From Candidatus Bathyarchaeota archaeon (GTDB taxonomy: Archaea; Thermoproteota; Bathyarchaeia; Bathyarchaeales; SOJC01): 64,000 bases of DNA. Below, in pieces: positions 37,173 to 47,949 of the stretch. Below the pieces are notes generated by a model, which made no database searches, was not told the origin of the DNA, and saw only the letters and a list, made by a program, of their open reading frames with translations. The stretch covers positions 1 through 64,000 of the forward strand of contig JAGLZW010000020.1 in assembly GCA_023131225.1 (NCBI GenBank). The letters are read 5' to 3'. How positions within the stretch are numbered: position 1 is the stretch's first letter; every line of letters starts with the position of its first letter. The position numbers were made by a program, and so were the translations under genes.

Positions 37173-38321
37173 ATGGCTAAACAACTCTCTCCAGGCATGC
37201 ATTTCATGCAAGGAAACAAAGCCTTAGCCGAAGCTGCAATCATTGCTGGATGCAGATTTTTTGCTGGCTACCCGATTACTCCCGCCAGTGAAATCGCTGA
37301 GCACATGGCAAAACGTCTTCCACAAGTTGATGGAATCATGATTCAAATGGAAGATGAAATAGCTTCGATGGCGGCTTTGATTGGAGCAAGCTGGACAGGC
37401 GCCAAGGTGATGACCGCAACTTCTGGTCCTGGCTTCAGCCTCATGCAAGAAAACATTGGATATGCTTTCATGACTGAAACTCCATGCGTTATAGCTGATA
37501 TCCAAAGAGCCGGACCAAGCACGGGACAGGCTACGAAGTGTGGTCAGGGCGATGTTATGCAGGCTCGCTGGGGCACCCATGGGGATTATGCATCAATAGT
37601 GTTATCTCCGAATTCGGTGCAGGAAATGTTTGACCTAACCGTTCGTGCTTTTAATCTGGCTGAGAAATATCGCGCACCCGTTATTTTACTTGGTGACGAA
37701 ATTGTAGCTCACATGAGAGAGCAAATGTTTGTACCACCTCTAGAAGAAATAGAGATCATTGACAGACGGAAGCCGAAACCTGGAGACGAGTCATTCTTTG
37801 GTGGTGAGGAGGTGCCACCTATGCCGTCCGTAGGTGAAGGCCACGACGTTGCTGTGACGGGTTCAACTCACGACGAGTTTGGAATGCGTTTCACAGCCGA
37901 CCCGGAAGTTCACCGCCGTCTTGTAACGCGGCTTGTCGGAAAAATCAGGAATAATGCTGAATCATTAACGGATTTCGAAGCCTTTAATATGGATAGCTGC
38001 GAGGTTGGCATTGTCACTTTTGGAAGTACTTCTCGTGCAGTTTATAAGGCAGTAGAAATGGCCACAGAGAGCGGGATTAAAGCTGGTTTTATTAGGTTGA
38101 AGACGATTTGGCCTTTTCCTGAAAAACCCATCCAAATGATGGCGCAGAAAGCTGAGACAATTATTGTACCTGAGATGAACTTGCAGCAGATTTTCTTTGA
38201 GGTGCAGAGAGTTGTTTGTGGTGCTGCAGAAGTTGTTTCTGTTAACAAGATTGGTGGCGGAGAAATGTTGACGCCTGAGGAACTTTTTTATGAAATCAAA
38301 AGGAGCGTCGAGAAACAATGA
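37173..38321 (+). CDS. korA: 2-oxoacid:ferredoxin oxidoreductase, alpha subunit
   Basis: A 382-residue protein with the pyrimidine-binding and domain II fold of 2-oxoacid:ferredoxin oxidoreductases: GNKALAEAAIIAGCRFFAGYP at the start, MEDEIASMAALIGASWTGAK near residue 60, TSGPGFSLMQENIGYA, QRAGPSTGQATK near 113, and VTFGSTSRAVYKAVEMA near 275. The KorA type converts 2-oxoglutarate to succinyl-CoA or the reverse. Overlaps of four bases join korA-korB-korC; a separate ferredoxin-like korD is not next to it. Confidence 0.9.
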   Translation: MAKQLSPGMHFMQGNKALAEAAIIAGCRFFAGYPITPASEIAEHMAKRLPQVDGIMIQMEDEIASMAALIGASWTGAKVMTATSGPGFSLMQENIGYAFMTETPCVIADIQRAGPSTGQATKCGQGDVMQARWGTHGDYASIVLSPNSVQEMFDLTVRAFNLAEKYRAPVILLGDEIVAHMREQMFVPPLEEIEIIDRRKPKPGDESFFGGEEVPPMPSVGEGHDVAVTGSTHDEFGMRFTADPEVHRRLVTRLVGKIRNNAESLTDFEAFNMDSCEVGIVTFGSTSRAVYKAVEMATESGIKAGFIRLKTIWPFPEKPIQMMAQKAETIIVPEMNLQQIFFEVQRVVCGAAEVVSVNKIGGGEMLTPEELFYEIKRSVEKQ

Positions 38322-39139
38322 GCGAAGCTTTTTCCAGCAAAAATTATCTTCGAGATATACGATTCCCCTTCTGTGAAGGATGCGGCGGCACCACCGTGGC
38401 TACTTGCTTTCTCAGGGCTGTTCACGAGCTTGGTCACCGAGATCTCCAAGGATTCGTCTTCTGCAGCGGCATCGGCTGTTCTTCGTGGATTCCATCACCA
38501 CACTTTAAGGCAGATTCTATCCATACTACACATGGGCGAAGCATTCCAGTCGCGACCGGCATCAAGCTTATGCGACCTGACTTGGATGTGGTTGTTTTTG
38601 GCGGCGACGGTGACATTGTCGGAATAGGGCTAAGCCATTTGATCCACGCGGCGAGAAGAAACCTTGACATTACCGTGATTATGGTGAACAACATGATTTA
38701 TGGCATGACTGGTGGGCAAGTGGCTGCAACAACTCCTTTGAAGACGAAAACCACTACTACTCCTTACGGCGGCTTTGAACGCCCCTTAGACGCCGTTCAC
38801 CTCGTCGTCTCTGCGGGAGCATGTTATGCTGCAAGGTCGACCACAGCGCACGTAAATCAGCTAAAAGAAGTCATTAAGAAGGCGTTGACTACGAAAGGTT
38901 TCAGCTTCGTTGAAGCAATAAGTCAGTGCCCAACGGCTTATGGTCGCCGCGTTGGTTTCAAGAACGCTGGAGAGATGCTTCTTTGGTTAAAGAAGCAAAG
39001 CATAACGGTTGAGGAGGCAGAGAAGCTGACTGAAAAGGAACTAGAAGAGAAGATAGTTGTCGGCGAATTCGCTTCCAGAAGGCATCCATCTTTAACTGAA
39101 AACATCCGAGCAATGTCAAAGGAGGCAAAGAGGCGATGA
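38318..39139 (+). CDS. korB: 2-oxoacid:ferredoxin oxidoreductase, beta subunit
   Basis: A 273-residue thiamine-diphosphate subunit. Cluster cysteines are in FPFCEGCGG and FCSGIGCSSW; the ThDP-magnesium motif is GGDGDIVGIGLSHLIHAARR near residue 95 followed by MVNNMIYGMTGGQ. It also has THGRSIPVATGIKL. The gene overlaps both neighbours by four bases. The end carries a charged extension (AEKLTEKELEEK) beyond the fold. Confidence 0.92.
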   Translation: MSEAFSSKNYLRDIRFPFCEGCGGTTVATCFLRAVHELGHRDLQGFVFCSGIGCSSWIPSPHFKADSIHTTHGRSIPVATGIKLMRPDLDVVVFGGDGDIVGIGLSHLIHAARRNLDITVIMVNNMIYGMTGGQVAATTPLKTKTTTTPYGGFERPLDAVHLVVSAGACYAARSTTAHVNQLKEVIKKALTTKGFSFVEAISQCPTAYGRRVGFKNAGEMLLWLKKQSITVEEAEKLTEKELEEKIVVGEFASRRHPSLTENIRAMSKEAKRR

Positions 39140-39660
39140 CTAGTGTTGAAGTGCGAATCTGCGGACTTGGAGGACAAGGAGTCGTCCTTGCAGGCCAAAT
39201 ACTTGGGCGTGCTGCAGTCTACGACGGAAAAAACGTGGTGCAAACCCAGAGCTACGGAGCAGAAGCCAGAGGAAGCGCCGCAAAAAGCGAAGTAATAATC
39301 TCAGACCAGAAAATAGGCTATCCGATGGTGAGAAAATGTGACATCCTCGTGGCAATGAGCCAGAGCGCCATAAATGCACACATTAAAGACTTGAAAGAAA
39401 ACGCCACCTTGCTAGTCGATAAAGATTTAGTGAAGCAAATCCCAGAAATCAAAGCCAAAGTCTACAACCTGCCAACAACCAAAGTTGCTGAAACACAATT
39501 AAGATCTAAGATGTACGCAAATGTCGTAATGCTCGGCGCATTAACAGAAATCACTAAAATCGTAAGTAAAGAAGCTATGAAAAAAGCCATCACAACCAGC
39601 GTCAGAGCAGACACTATAAAAACAAATCTATGCGCCTTCGAAGAAGGCATCAACCTATAA
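39136..39660 (+). CDS. korC: 2-oxoacid:ferredoxin oxidoreductase, gamma subunit
   Basis: A 174-residue gamma domain: RICGLGGQGVVLAGQILGRAA at the start, QSYGAEARGSAAKSEVIIS near residue 45, VMLGALTEITKIVSKEAMKKAI near 130. It completes the KorABC complex. No fourth subunit follows. Confidence 0.92.
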   Translation: MTSVEVRICGLGGQGVVLAGQILGRAAVYDGKNVVQTQSYGAEARGSAAKSEVIISDQKIGYPMVRKCDILVAMSQSAINAHIKDLKENATLLVDKDLVKQIPEIKAKVYNLPTTKVAETQLRSKMYANVVMLGALTEITKIVSKEAMKKAITTSVRADTIKTNLCAFEEGINL

Positions 39661-44540: not shown

Positions 44541-45011
44541 GAGTCAGGCTCCCAATTCATTTTGTCGTGTTGACCTAAAAAATTAGTCCTGTCATGCGTG
44601 TGCGTTCCCGTTTCATTGTGGAGGGGCGCATGATTTGAACTATAGAAAAAGGAGATATCACCCAACACCGGCAAATTCCTACGGAATTTCCCCCGCAAAC
44701 CTATCTTTTTTATTCCTAAAGATCAAGGGGTTAGGTTTAAAACTTCGGTTTAAATTATCGGGGTTTGAGTTTTCATCCAGATCTGACGCGCGCGCGCTCG
44801 TTTCAATACTCGAAAGTGACATCGCAAAACCTCTCGTCCTTTCAATGTGGAGATCTTAAAATCATCAAGCCTGATTCCCTCATACTTGTCCAGAAACTTC
44901 TCTGCCTGTCCTTCTGACCCTCTGGAAACACTCTGCCTACGCCTTCACTGACTCTGGTTTTGAAGAGAAACTCAAGGTTGTAAGGCTACGCATAAGTAAA
45001 TGAAGCATCAA
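44541..45011. other. Intergenic region upstream of the helicase gene
   Basis: It holds repeat copy 4 and an alternating CG run (ACGCGCGCGCGC near 44786). On the minus strand, 44795-44920 has an open stretch (EGQAEKFLDKYEGIRLDDFK, then GREVLRCHFRVLK) that looks protein-like but lacks a start and a family, so it may be a gene remnant. Nothing else could be named. Confidence 0.4.
44633..44663 (-). repeat. Dispersed repeat copy 4 (GGGTGATATCTC...GTTCAAA)
   Basis: On the minus strand GGGTGATATCTCC is followed by AGTTCAAAT at a 22-base offset. It is in the same orientation as copy 3 and lies 93 bases upstream of the helicase start, so the two copies form a direct repeat 2.85 kb apart. Confidence 0.72.
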
Positions 45012-46499
45012 CTAAGGTGTGTATTTGAAGGGGTGCTTCGACCGGTCCTTATTCTCCGTAACCTCATCTGCCGATGGTCTTCCCTCAATAGCTCTTCGAA
45101 TAGCGTGCCGCATAGCCTTGTAATTATTAATGTACACTCTTTGCCGATTAACCGCCGACGGATGTACGAAAACATTCGCAATAATAATCAAATCTTCTGC
45201 AGCCCCTTTTGGAATGCTGCCATCCGCCAAACTGTCCGCGACTGCTTTAGCCACGCCGGCCTGCGCCGGTCCATAAACCATACTCGCCTGCCGCATGTTC
45301 TTAATTGTCACCGTGGGAACCATCAACGTGACAGGCTTTACCAAGACATTGGGCTCCAGAATAGCTACAAGCGCCTCATGTCCCGGAGTCGGATTTGCCT
45401 TCGCCTTCGCGTATGCCTCACCAACGGGACCGTCTTTCTTGCCAATCATCAGGTCGATGTGCGCCACTTCTGCATCCTTCCCAGCCAAAGCCTCACCCAC
45501 ACGCAGTTTGAAATCATGAATTACTTCAGGTGTTATGTGAACAGCCGTAAACCTTTCTTCCAAAGCTTTCTCCTCAATCTCAAACTTAACTGGTTTAGCC
45601 TTTATCTTGCCAATCTTCTCCAAATCCAGCCGCAACTCTTCCCTCGCCTCATACGTAAGCTCACCGCCAACGCTAAGCGGCAATCTTACACGCCCAACCT
45701 TAATTCCTATCATGTTCAAAGCCTCCTTAGCGCCCACCGCGCCACTCTGAGCCGTAATCCTTGCGATTTTCTGAACCTTGTATTGCAGCTCACGAGCCCT
45801 CTGCAAATCGCCCTTTTGTACGTTGTTGTAAATTTCAACCCAAATATCAGGAATGAAGTTGGCACTTGCCAAGATTGCTCCACTGGCTCCAGCAGCCAAA
45901 GCCGCCATGACCACCTCGTCATGACCACACATCACGTTAATTTTGTCGCGAACCTTTTCTAAAACTGCCAAAATGAAGCTAAGTTGCCCGCTGCTGTCTT
46001 TGACGCCGACTATGTTGGGTATCTGCGCGAGGTCTTCCACCATCTGCCATGGCAAGGGTAGTCCGGTGCATTGAGGTATGTTGTAGAGGATTAATGGCAA
46101 ATCCACCTTAGACGCAATGGTGAAATAGTGCTCGTAAATTCCTCTGCTGGTAGGCTTTAGGTAGTAAGGTGTCACAATTAAAGCTGCGTCAGCACCAGCA
46201 TCCTTTGCATACTTTGTCATCTCTAACGCTTGTTCGGTTCCGCTTGCTCCGGTGCCCGCTACAACGGAAACTCTGCCGTTAACTTCATCAACAACAACGT
46301 CAATAACATGCTTCCTTTCTTTGATAGTCATGTTTATGAACTCACCAGTAGTCCCACAAGGAACAACACCGCTAACGCCGAGCTCAATACAGTGATTAAC
46401 AAGCACACGCATTTGCTCTTCATCAACCTGCTTTCTGTCATCAGCAAAAGGTGTCACTAAGGCAGGCATGATCCCTTTAGGCTTGAACATCAACTCCAA
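45012..46499 (-). CDS. Dihydrodipicolinate-synthase-like aldolase fused to formaldehyde-activating enzyme (Fae)
   Basis: A 495-residue two-domain protein. Residues 1-295 are a class I aldolase of the DapA/NAL family: GTTGE (47-51), the phenol Tyr in LILYNIPQCTG (Tyr139) and the Schiff-base Lys in VGVKDSSG (Lys167). Residues about 315-475 are a Fae domain: VGEALAGKDAEVAHIDLMIG with the catalytic His347, then VTIKNMRQASMVYGPAQAGVA and IIIANVFVHPSAV. Fae condenses formaldehyde with tetrahydromethanopterin. Known archaeal fusions join Fae to Hps; a join to a DapA-type aldolase is uncommon to my knowledge. Substrate of the aldolase half is unknown. Divergent from the gene at 46663. Confidence 0.88.
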   Translation of the reverse strand: MELMFKPKGIMPALVTPFADDRKQVDEEQMRVLVNHCIELGVSGVVPCGTTGEFINMTIKERKHVIDVVVDEVNGRVSVVAGTGASGTEQALEMTKYAKDAGADAALIVTPYYLKPTSRGIYEHYFTIASKVDLPLILYNIPQCTGLPLPWQMVEDLAQIPNIVGVKDSSGQLSFILAVLEKVRDKINVMCGHDEVVMAALAAGASGAILASANFIPDIWVEIYNNVQKGDLQRARELQYKVQKIARITAQSGAVGAKEALNMIGIKVGRVRLPLSVGGELTYEAREELRLDLEKIGKIKAKPVKFEIEEKALEERFTAVHITPEVIHDFKLRVGEALAGKDAEVAHIDLMIGKKDGPVGEAYAKAKANPTPGHEALVAILEPNVLVKPVTLMVPTVTIKNMRQASMVYGPAQAGVAKAVADSLADGSIPKGAAEDLIIIANVFVHPSAVNRQRVYINNYKAMRHAIRRAIEGRPSADEVTENKDRSKHPFKYTP

Positions 46500-46662
46500 C
46501 TCCTTTACAATTTATCGTGTCTTGTACACATTTAAGTCCTTCACTCTACGTTGACCAGTGTGAATTGACACTGATTTCGCAGAGCTATTCTTATAAATAC
46601 TGCTAACATTATAACGCAACATAAGGCGCCCTTAAAAGTCAATAGAAAACTTGGAGGAGCAT

Positions 46663-47949
46663 GTGTTGAACAACCTCAAACATAAATTGAGAATCAAGGA
46701 AGAAAATCTAAAGAAAATTAACGATTTCCTTCTAAAAGAAGACAACCCTCTTGTAGACAATTTACTTAAAATTATTGAAAAATATGGCAGTGTCGAAGAG
46801 ATTAACCGAAAGGCTCGAGAAGCCCGTAAACTCGAAAACCTCATGAGTCAACTAAAGGCAAAGAACTCACCCTTTGTAAGAGATCTTGAGTGGCTTATTG
46901 AACAACGGGACAACGACGCTTTTATCAGCATTCCCAATTATCGCAGGAAAATTCTAGGAGATAAAGCAGATTCTACGACGTTCAATGAGTCATTCGCCGT
47001 CACCCTCGAAATCAGCGCGTGCAACTTTTTCCCTTGGGTTATAGAAGAAGCAAAAAAAGCCATTGCACAGCAGGACCTTATGCCCAGTCGCTTTATTCGC
47101 GTCCACTCCATGAAAGAGCAAAATGAAGACAATGAACTCTTGGCGTTTGCAGCAGCAATGCAGATTGTAGGCGCTTCGTACGTGGAAACGTTAGATACAA
47201 AGGGAACTCTACCTGGACCCGATGGCCTACCCATTAACGTTCACCTAGGTGGACCCGAGACTATCACCGGATATTTTGGCGGCGTCGGGATGCCAAACGA
47301 ATACGCTTTGAAGTGGGTTGATGAATTTCTGCACTATTACACTAAATACGGCATTCAACAGGTGTTGAATATAAACATAGGAAGCGTAATGCTGGGATAC
47401 TGGCTCCACAAGCTTGGAATCGACATCGAATTCAAAATTTCAGTATATCTAGGCAACGATAACCCTTACTCTTGCTTCTGGACGCTAATGACCGCTAAGC
47501 TCTTTAGTCGTGACGACAGCACCAGCCCACTTGTAGGCTTCAACCTTGCAAATTCCGTCAACAACGAGACAATTGAAATTTCAGCCTATATACGAAAAGC
47601 TTTCGACTTTGAAGACATTGTACGCATTGAGCATCACATAGTAGAAACTTACAAAAGCATTGTCAGACAGCCATACGACCGACTTGACGAACTTCTGGAA
47701 ATCGCCGACCATGTGAAGAACATTAGCGCTAAACATGAGGGCGGGGTGCTCGAAGTTGAGAAAACTCGGGAACACCCCTCGGACATCTTGGAATACTTTG
47801 TCCCCCAAAAGGACATTCTTGCGCAGAATTTGATGCCGAAACTAACAATCAACTATCTGGACAAGCATGACTCGATGAACAGAACTGCCAAAGCCCTCAC
47901 CGAACGAGGATTAACCTTCATCGCCGCTCAGAAACTGCACAAGAAATAA
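46663..47949 (+). CDS. Conserved hypothetical protein, divergent from the DapA-Fae gene
   Basis: About 428 residues starting at GTG, which has GGAGG five bases upstream. The first 110 residues are helical and charged; a larger alpha/beta region follows with glycine-rich loops (NVHLGGPETITGYFGG near residue 195, LNINIGSVMLGYW near 240). The alternating strand/helix rhythm suggests a barrel-type enzyme. No family recognised. The 160-base gap to the Fae fusion gene is a likely shared promoter region, so a joint role in C1 or amino-acid metabolism is possible. Confidence 0.7.
   Translation: MLNNLKHKLRIKEENLKKINDFLLKEDNPLVDNLLKIIEKYGSVEEINRKAREARKLENLMSQLKAKNSPFVRDLEWLIEQRDNDAFISIPNYRRKILGDKADSTTFNESFAVTLEISACNFFPWVIEEAKKAIAQQDLMPSRFIRVHSMKEQNEDNELLAFAAAMQIVGASYVETLDTKGTLPGPDGLPINVHLGGPETITGYFGGVGMPNEYALKWVDEFLHYYTKYGIQQVLNINIGSVMLGYWLHKLGIDIEFKISVYLGNDNPYSCFWTLMTAKLFSRDDSTSPLVGFNLANSVNNETIEISAYIRKAFDFEDIVRIEHHIVETYKSIVRQPYDRLDELLEIADHVKNISAKHEGGVLEVEKTREHPSDILEYFVPQKDILAQNLMPKLTINYLDKHDSMNRTAKALTERGLTFIAAQKLHKK

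Follow-up and report, generated by a model that had tools for sequence, protein, structure and literature searches.

Gene and domain architecture

The window analyzed here is a stretch of 64,000 nucleotides from a Candidatus Bathyarchaeota archaeon. An uninterrupted ORF of 495 codons occupies positions 45012..46499 and joins a DapA-type aldolase to a formaldehyde-activating enzyme (Fae). The fusion had been recognized in a sequence-only reading of the window; its strand, not given there, is the minus strand. The called start is a TTG codon. Alignments with most relatives begin only at residue 4, an internal methionine, so the true start probably lies three codons further in, at the ATG at 46490 (Met4). 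A long plus-strand ORF runs across the same region (45000..45962); nothing supports it, and it most likely arises as a side effect of the minus-strand gene.

The 495-residue protein begins with a DHDPS/NAL-type class I aldolase domain (residues 7–294, 45618..46481, minus strand; Pfam PF00701, E 1.8e-80) and ends with a Fae domain (residues 334–491, 45027..45500, minus strand; Pfam PF08714, E 2.2e-62; TIGR03126, 213.8 bits against a cut-off of 118). These are connected by a linker of residues 295–333 (45501..45617, minus strand), which is predicted to be mostly disordered between residues 305 and 330 (pLDDT <50). In NCBIfam, both dapA (251 bits) and one_C_fae (213.8 bits) score above their cut-offs. 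Only the DHDPS and Fae domains pass the Pfam cut-offs, and an Hps domain is absent from the chain.

Distribution and origin of the fusion

A scan of GTDB contigs yielded 45 loci, nearly all from Bathyarchaeota, and the majority are full-length fusions. Eight of these loci sit in records titled “chromosome”, while the record title of one (L036) says Thermoproteota and nothing finer. Among the 398 sampled genomes of the phylum, 20 contain the full fusion and all 20 belong to the class of the window. We aligned 41 full-length fusion proteins, several of them from chromosome-level records, which are 55–86% identical to the window protein. In separate trees of the two halves, every fusion lies on one side of a fully supported branch (100/99), and a single fusion event is the simplest reading since both trees group all fusions. 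Moreover, the dN/dS values of close pairs are 0.025–0.037 for the aldolase half and 0.015–0.092 for the Fae half, while those of the linker range from 0 to 0.47, so that it is mostly less constrained than the domains. These alignments and trees show a genuine, conserved fusion of single origin, both halves of which are under strong purifying selection.

An assembly error at the join, which the sequence-only reading had named as what would overturn it, is ruled out by the full-length fusions in dozens of genomes, including the eight “chromosome” records. The probability of an assembly chimera or annotation artefact is negligible: nothing in its favour was found, and the fusion is kept, with one origin, in dozens of independently assembled genomes. 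We found no description of a DapA-Fae fusion in the open-access literature. Both domains are known, and it is their combination that appears to be new.

Catalytic residues and identity of the aldolase half

The aldolase half shares the fold of the DHDPS/NAL superfamily (DapA, NanA, KDG aldolase, HOGA, YagE) and its GTTGE and YNIP motifs, and the features of the class I members are present, namely the PF00701 match, the Schiff-base lysine and the Thr-Thr/Tyr relay. The best PDB match of its structure model is 2yxg, with a TM score of 0.95 on the target. The E. coli DapA enzyme uses Lys161 for the Schiff base, Tyr107, Tyr133 and Thr44 for the proton relay, and Arg138 to bind aspartate semialdehyde (PMC4977564). 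In the fusion, Thr50-Thr51 of GTTGE (46347..46352, minus strand) are the proton relay and pyruvate-binding motif, Tyr139 (46083..46085, minus strand) aligns with E. coli DapA Tyr133, and Lys167 in KDSSG (45999..46001, minus strand) is the Schiff-base lysine. T51, Y113, Y139 and K167 occur in all 41 fusions and T50 in 40 of them. The residues listed earlier from the sequence, that is G49-T50-T51-G52-E53, Y139, K167 and H347 in VAHIDL, are all present with the same numbering. As that reading held, the active sites of both halves look competent, considering these residues and the retained active histidine of Fae.

The fusion is distinguished from the rest of the superfamily by a fusion-specific SVGGEL-type insertion, the Fae tail and the loss of the Arg138 equivalent. 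The last position is taken by Cys144 (46068..46070, minus strand) in the window protein, and by Cys in 35, Leu in three, Ala in two, Val in one and Arg in none of the 41 fusions. In the alignment, the arginine is retained in E. coli DapA, in the DapA of genome G352 and in three stand-alone relatives (L080, L082, L083). The fusion is the sole DHDPS-family gene of its own genome. DapB (PF05173) is absent from this genome and from 19 of the 20 fusion-bearing genomes, while G352 has a separate DapA gene adjoining DapB besides the fusion.

We rejected an identity as the DapA of lysine synthesis, because the arginine is gone in 41 of 41 fusions, the own genome lacks DapB and G352 combines the fusion with a DapA and a DapB of its own. 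It is therefore highly improbable that the protein is an ordinary DapA of this pathway with an incidental Fae domain, even though the closest PDB matches are DHDPS enzymes and the dapA model TIGR00674 gives 251 bits against a cut-off of 206.15; this score is weak evidence alone, since the residue test fails in the same protein.

The Fae half and the H4MPT pathway

The Fae domain (PF08714/TIGR03126) is complete and contains the active-site histidine, His347 in VAHIDL (45459..45461, minus strand), which canonical Fae shares with at least 90% of the fusions and which is invariant in alignment A3. From 13 canonical Fae sequences, with at most one exception allowed, we defined 73 canonical-invariant columns, and 47 of them, active histidine included, are retained in at least 90% of the fusions. 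The fusion thus resembles stand-alone Fae (TIGR03126, PDB 1y5y/1y60) in the whole domain, the active histidine and most invariant residues. It differs in its C-terminal place and in four substitutions, T375E, K396T, K454R and L465H: all 41 fusions carry them, and the canonical sequences compared do not vary at these sites. Because of these four changes, the use of H4MPT by the fusion is not certain.

The H4MPT pathway is present in the organism, as MCH was found in its genome and altogether in 46 of the 50 genomes compared. In G348, a well-covered genome with the fusion, no MCH was detectable. The own genome (G000) has five MCH matches (contigs C2, C13 and C26, three of them on C2) versus one in most relatives; these would be paralogues or contaminating contigs.

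The own genome contains a second Fae in a separate Fae-Hps (L001, 594 bits; NF009833), while genome G142 has no Fae match besides the fusion. The Fae-Hps in L001 (796–2223, minus strand, own-genome contig C13) is extended at its N-terminus by about 80 residues, which match a helix-turn-helix weakly. Within the class, many frames encoding Fae-Hps have 475–515 codons, versus about 403–427 in others. Going by these features, the extended Fae-Hps could be a DNA-binding formaldehyde enzyme.

Genomic neighbourhood

The gene that most often accompanies the fusion is divergent to it, at 46651..47949 (plus strand); it encodes a protein of 432 residues and belongs to cluster 1, present in 31 of 43 fusion loci. 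This protein belongs to no known family: Pfam and NCBIfam gave no match at E<=0.001, relaxed thresholds brought up nothing convincing, and its low-confidence structure model (pLDDT 64) has no fold match with E <= 0.001. Members of cluster 19, directly upstream of the fusion in three further loci (L027, L029 and L032), are distantly similar to it (72%). A second copy of it was seen in G276 at 676186–677280.

The other neighbours are sporadic, and none of these dehydratase types and ferredoxin oxidoreductases is general across fusion loci. In the window, three ORFs at 37173..39660 (plus strand; POR_N in ORF 37173–38321) encode 2-oxoacid:ferredoxin oxidoreductases. These are loose neighbours and a possible sink for pyruvate or 2-oxoacids; such genes are also near the fusion in L018, L024, L037 and L038. 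An aldehyde:ferredoxin oxidoreductase-like gene (cluster 17; by Pfam for the L034 copy) is found near the fusion in L016, L021 and L034. In L034, a galactarate/altronate-dehydratase-type enzyme is divergently adjacent to the fusion, and enzymes of this type make 2-keto-3-deoxy acids. In three loci (L004 6981–7967, L009 7211–8167 and L110 1901–2887), the fusion is followed on the same strand, after about 60 bases, by a threonine/serine-dehydratase-like gene, and the two probably form one operon. Stand-alone DHDPS and Fae genes side by side were not seen among the neighbourhoods listed.

Amino-acid pathways in fusion-bearing genomes

We compared gene presence in 50 genomes, 20 with and 30 without the fusion. 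Homoserine dehydrogenase (HSD) is present in none of the 20 and in 28 of the 30 (Fisher p 5e-12, relatedness ignored). As a control, strong HisA/HisF matches were counted, and these are likewise found in one of the 20 versus 28 of the 30. ASADH above cut-off (2/20 versus 25/30) and DapB_C (1/20 versus 24/30) are also rarer in the fusion-bearing genomes. In the single-contig genome G276, tblastn found no histidine biosynthesis genes save a generic aminotransferase match to hisC, and no match to tryptophan synthase, argB/argC, leuA, ilvC/ilvD, aspartate kinase, ASADH, HSD, dapB/dapF/lysA or metB/metE; the queries were from E. coli and may overlook archaeal enzymes that have diverged, and G276 contains 9,800 N bases. 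Gene content therefore suggests that the carriers are mostly amino-acid auxotrophs and that the exclusion of HSD mostly reflects this auxotrophy, because the HisA/HisF control and G276 show the same broad gene loss.

A PRK06450-type “threonine synthase” is annotated in nine fusion-bearing genomes and in G297 (L095–L100, L111 and others), including G276 and others that are otherwise auxotrophic. Either the gene may be misannotated, or these organisms may use an unusual way to make threonine.

Proposed function and alternatives

We tentatively propose, at somewhat less than an even chance, that the fusion is a bifunctional formaldehyde-exchanging pyruvate aldolase coupled to H4MPT. We infer the shared intermediate, the substrate and the direction as follows. 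A class I (Schiff-base) pyruvate aldolase and the Fae domain would share formaldehyde, and the net reaction would be 4-hydroxy-2-oxobutanoate (HOB, 2-keto-3-deoxytetronate), or a close formaldehyde-yielding 2-oxo acid, + H4MPT <-> pyruvate + methylene-H4MPT + H2O, with HOB as the simplest candidate substrate. For this proposal we count the complete domains, the intact catalytic residues, the loss of the DapA-specific arginine, the single origin, the purifying selection, the presence of the H4MPT pathway, the precedent of Fae-Hps, G142 with its single Fae match, and the neighbours of galactarate/altronate-dehydratase type in L034 and of aldehyde:ferredoxin oxidoreductase type in L016, L021 and L034; the four changed Fae positions, the fusion-bearing G348 without detectable MCH and the lack of adjacent stand-alone DHDPS and Fae genes among the neighbourhoods listed are counted against it. 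In the cleavage direction, C1 units would pass to H4MPT and pyruvate to ferredoxin oxidoreductases. Cleavage seems more likely, since it fits the mostly auxotrophic, presumably fermentative hosts, while synthesis fits genomes like G201. The fusion-bearing G276 yielded no homologue of sugar-acid dehydratases (UxaA/GarD, RhmD, DgoD, IlvD), which leaves 2-keto-3-deoxytetronate without a general source.

Known Fae assembles as a pentamer, most DHDPS enzymes as tetramers. Because these symmetries differ and the linker is predicted to be disordered, the two sites of one chain are unlikely to be joined by a fixed tunnel, and formaldehyde would probably be transferred by proximity. According to the sequence-only reading, fusion with Hps is the one widely known Fae fusion of archaea, and the literature we found agrees. 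In Fae-Hps (H4MPT hydro-lyase / 3-hexulose-6-phosphate synthase), Fae is likewise in one chain with a formaldehyde-producing or -consuming aldolase, and it was proposed that Fae recovers the formaldehyde which the aldolase releases (PMC5241800). However, the partner there is Hps of the OMP decarboxylase family instead of a DHDPS-type Schiff-base aldolase, and the order is reversed, with Fae N-terminal in Fae-Hps and C-terminal here.

In its net chemistry, the proposed enzyme would be a modular pyruvate hydroxymethyltransferase, whose aldolase and formaldehyde loader do the work of the one-domain PanB or SHMT, which transfer C1 units between pterins and oxo or amino acids. The construction is unrelated, as the two functions are in separate domains in the fusion. 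The own genome encodes both PanB and SHMT, and a replacement for PanB was rejected for this genome since PanB is present there. PanB is rare in the class and was found in 8 of 20 genomes with the fusion and 3 of 39 without. It is thus absent from most Bathyarchaeia sampled (present in 11 of 59), also from genomes that do have histidine genes and a homoserine dehydrogenase gene.

Each half could also act differently. The aldolase half may cleave or make a larger 2-keto-3-deoxy acid whose aldehyde is not formaldehyde, while Fae detoxifies or recycles formaldehyde from elsewhere, such as the reverse RuMP route. The family is broad, and the nearest stand-alone relatives of the aldolase half are 39–45% identical, some of them beside sugar-metabolism-like genes; the galactarate-dehydratase-type neighbour in L034 and the Fae-Hps of the own genome, a formaldehyde source, also agree with such a role. 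Nevertheless, Fae is already joined to Hps in that genome, so a second Fae on an unrelated aldolase needs a reason, and no sugar-acid dehydratase was found in G276. We consider this alternative rather unlikely. It is quite doubtful, and less probable than this, that the Fae half has given up H4MPT chemistry and serves the aldolase as a formaldehyde-binding, regulatory or oligomerising domain. The four fixed substitutions point in that direction, whereas the active histidine, the aspartate and most other invariant positions are retained, the dN/dS of the Fae half is as low as that of the aldolase half, and the fusion is the only Fae match in G142.

The absence of HSD from the fusion-bearing genomes suggested that the fusion supplies HOB and hence homoserine, a link weakened by the HisA/HisF control. 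In this synthetic direction, pyruvate and a C1 unit would give HOB, which a transaminase would convert to homoserine, with threonine formed from that; the fusion would so replace HSD. Within genus g22, G324 and G352 have the fusion without HSD and G317 is the opposite. G201 has neither HSD nor ASADH, and its homoserine kinase (250 bits) adjoins threonine synthase (280 bits). G160, also without HSD, retains histidine genes and ASADH and has a gene of homocysteine biosynthesis at 1.7 kb from the fusion; G352, with ASADH and Dap genes and no HSD, is the third suggestive genome. Furthermore, the chemistry works in engineered E. coli, where RhmA catalyzes the HOB aldolase step of the homoserine cycle, pyruvate + formaldehyde -> HOB (PMC8879981). 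The fusion would resemble this step if our proposal is right, although that system is synthetic and uses a promiscuous class II aldolase and no H4MPT. Against the route stand the loss of strong HisA/HisF in 19 of the 20 fusion-bearing genomes, the missing his, trp, arg, leuA, ilvC/ilvD, lys and met genes of G276, and the family of the window's organism (f1), which is mostly without a recognizable threonine synthase; ThrB is above cut-off in G201 only among the fusion-bearing genomes. We therefore regard replacement of HSD as unlikely in general. It is equally improbable, in our estimate, that a natural H4MPT-linked pyruvate hydroxymethyltransferase makes HOB and that at least some lineages like G201 feed it into homoserine and threonine without aspartate kinase, ASADH and HSD.

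Significance

The fusion is a trap for annotation: the protein scores as DapA yet is without the residue that defines DapA, and many of its hosts have no remaining lysine pathway. To our knowledge, the HOB aldolase step to homoserine is so far known only from engineered E. coli, and a route as considered for G201 would, if true, be its natural counterpart. Beside Fae-Hps, DapA-Fae would be the second type of Fae fusion, and it would strengthen the idea that archaea hold free formaldehyde low by joining formaldehyde aldolases physically to Fae. Bathyarchaeota are among the most abundant groups of sediment archaea, and in them the fusion would connect the C1 pool of methanopterin with aldol reactions of the pyruvate type.
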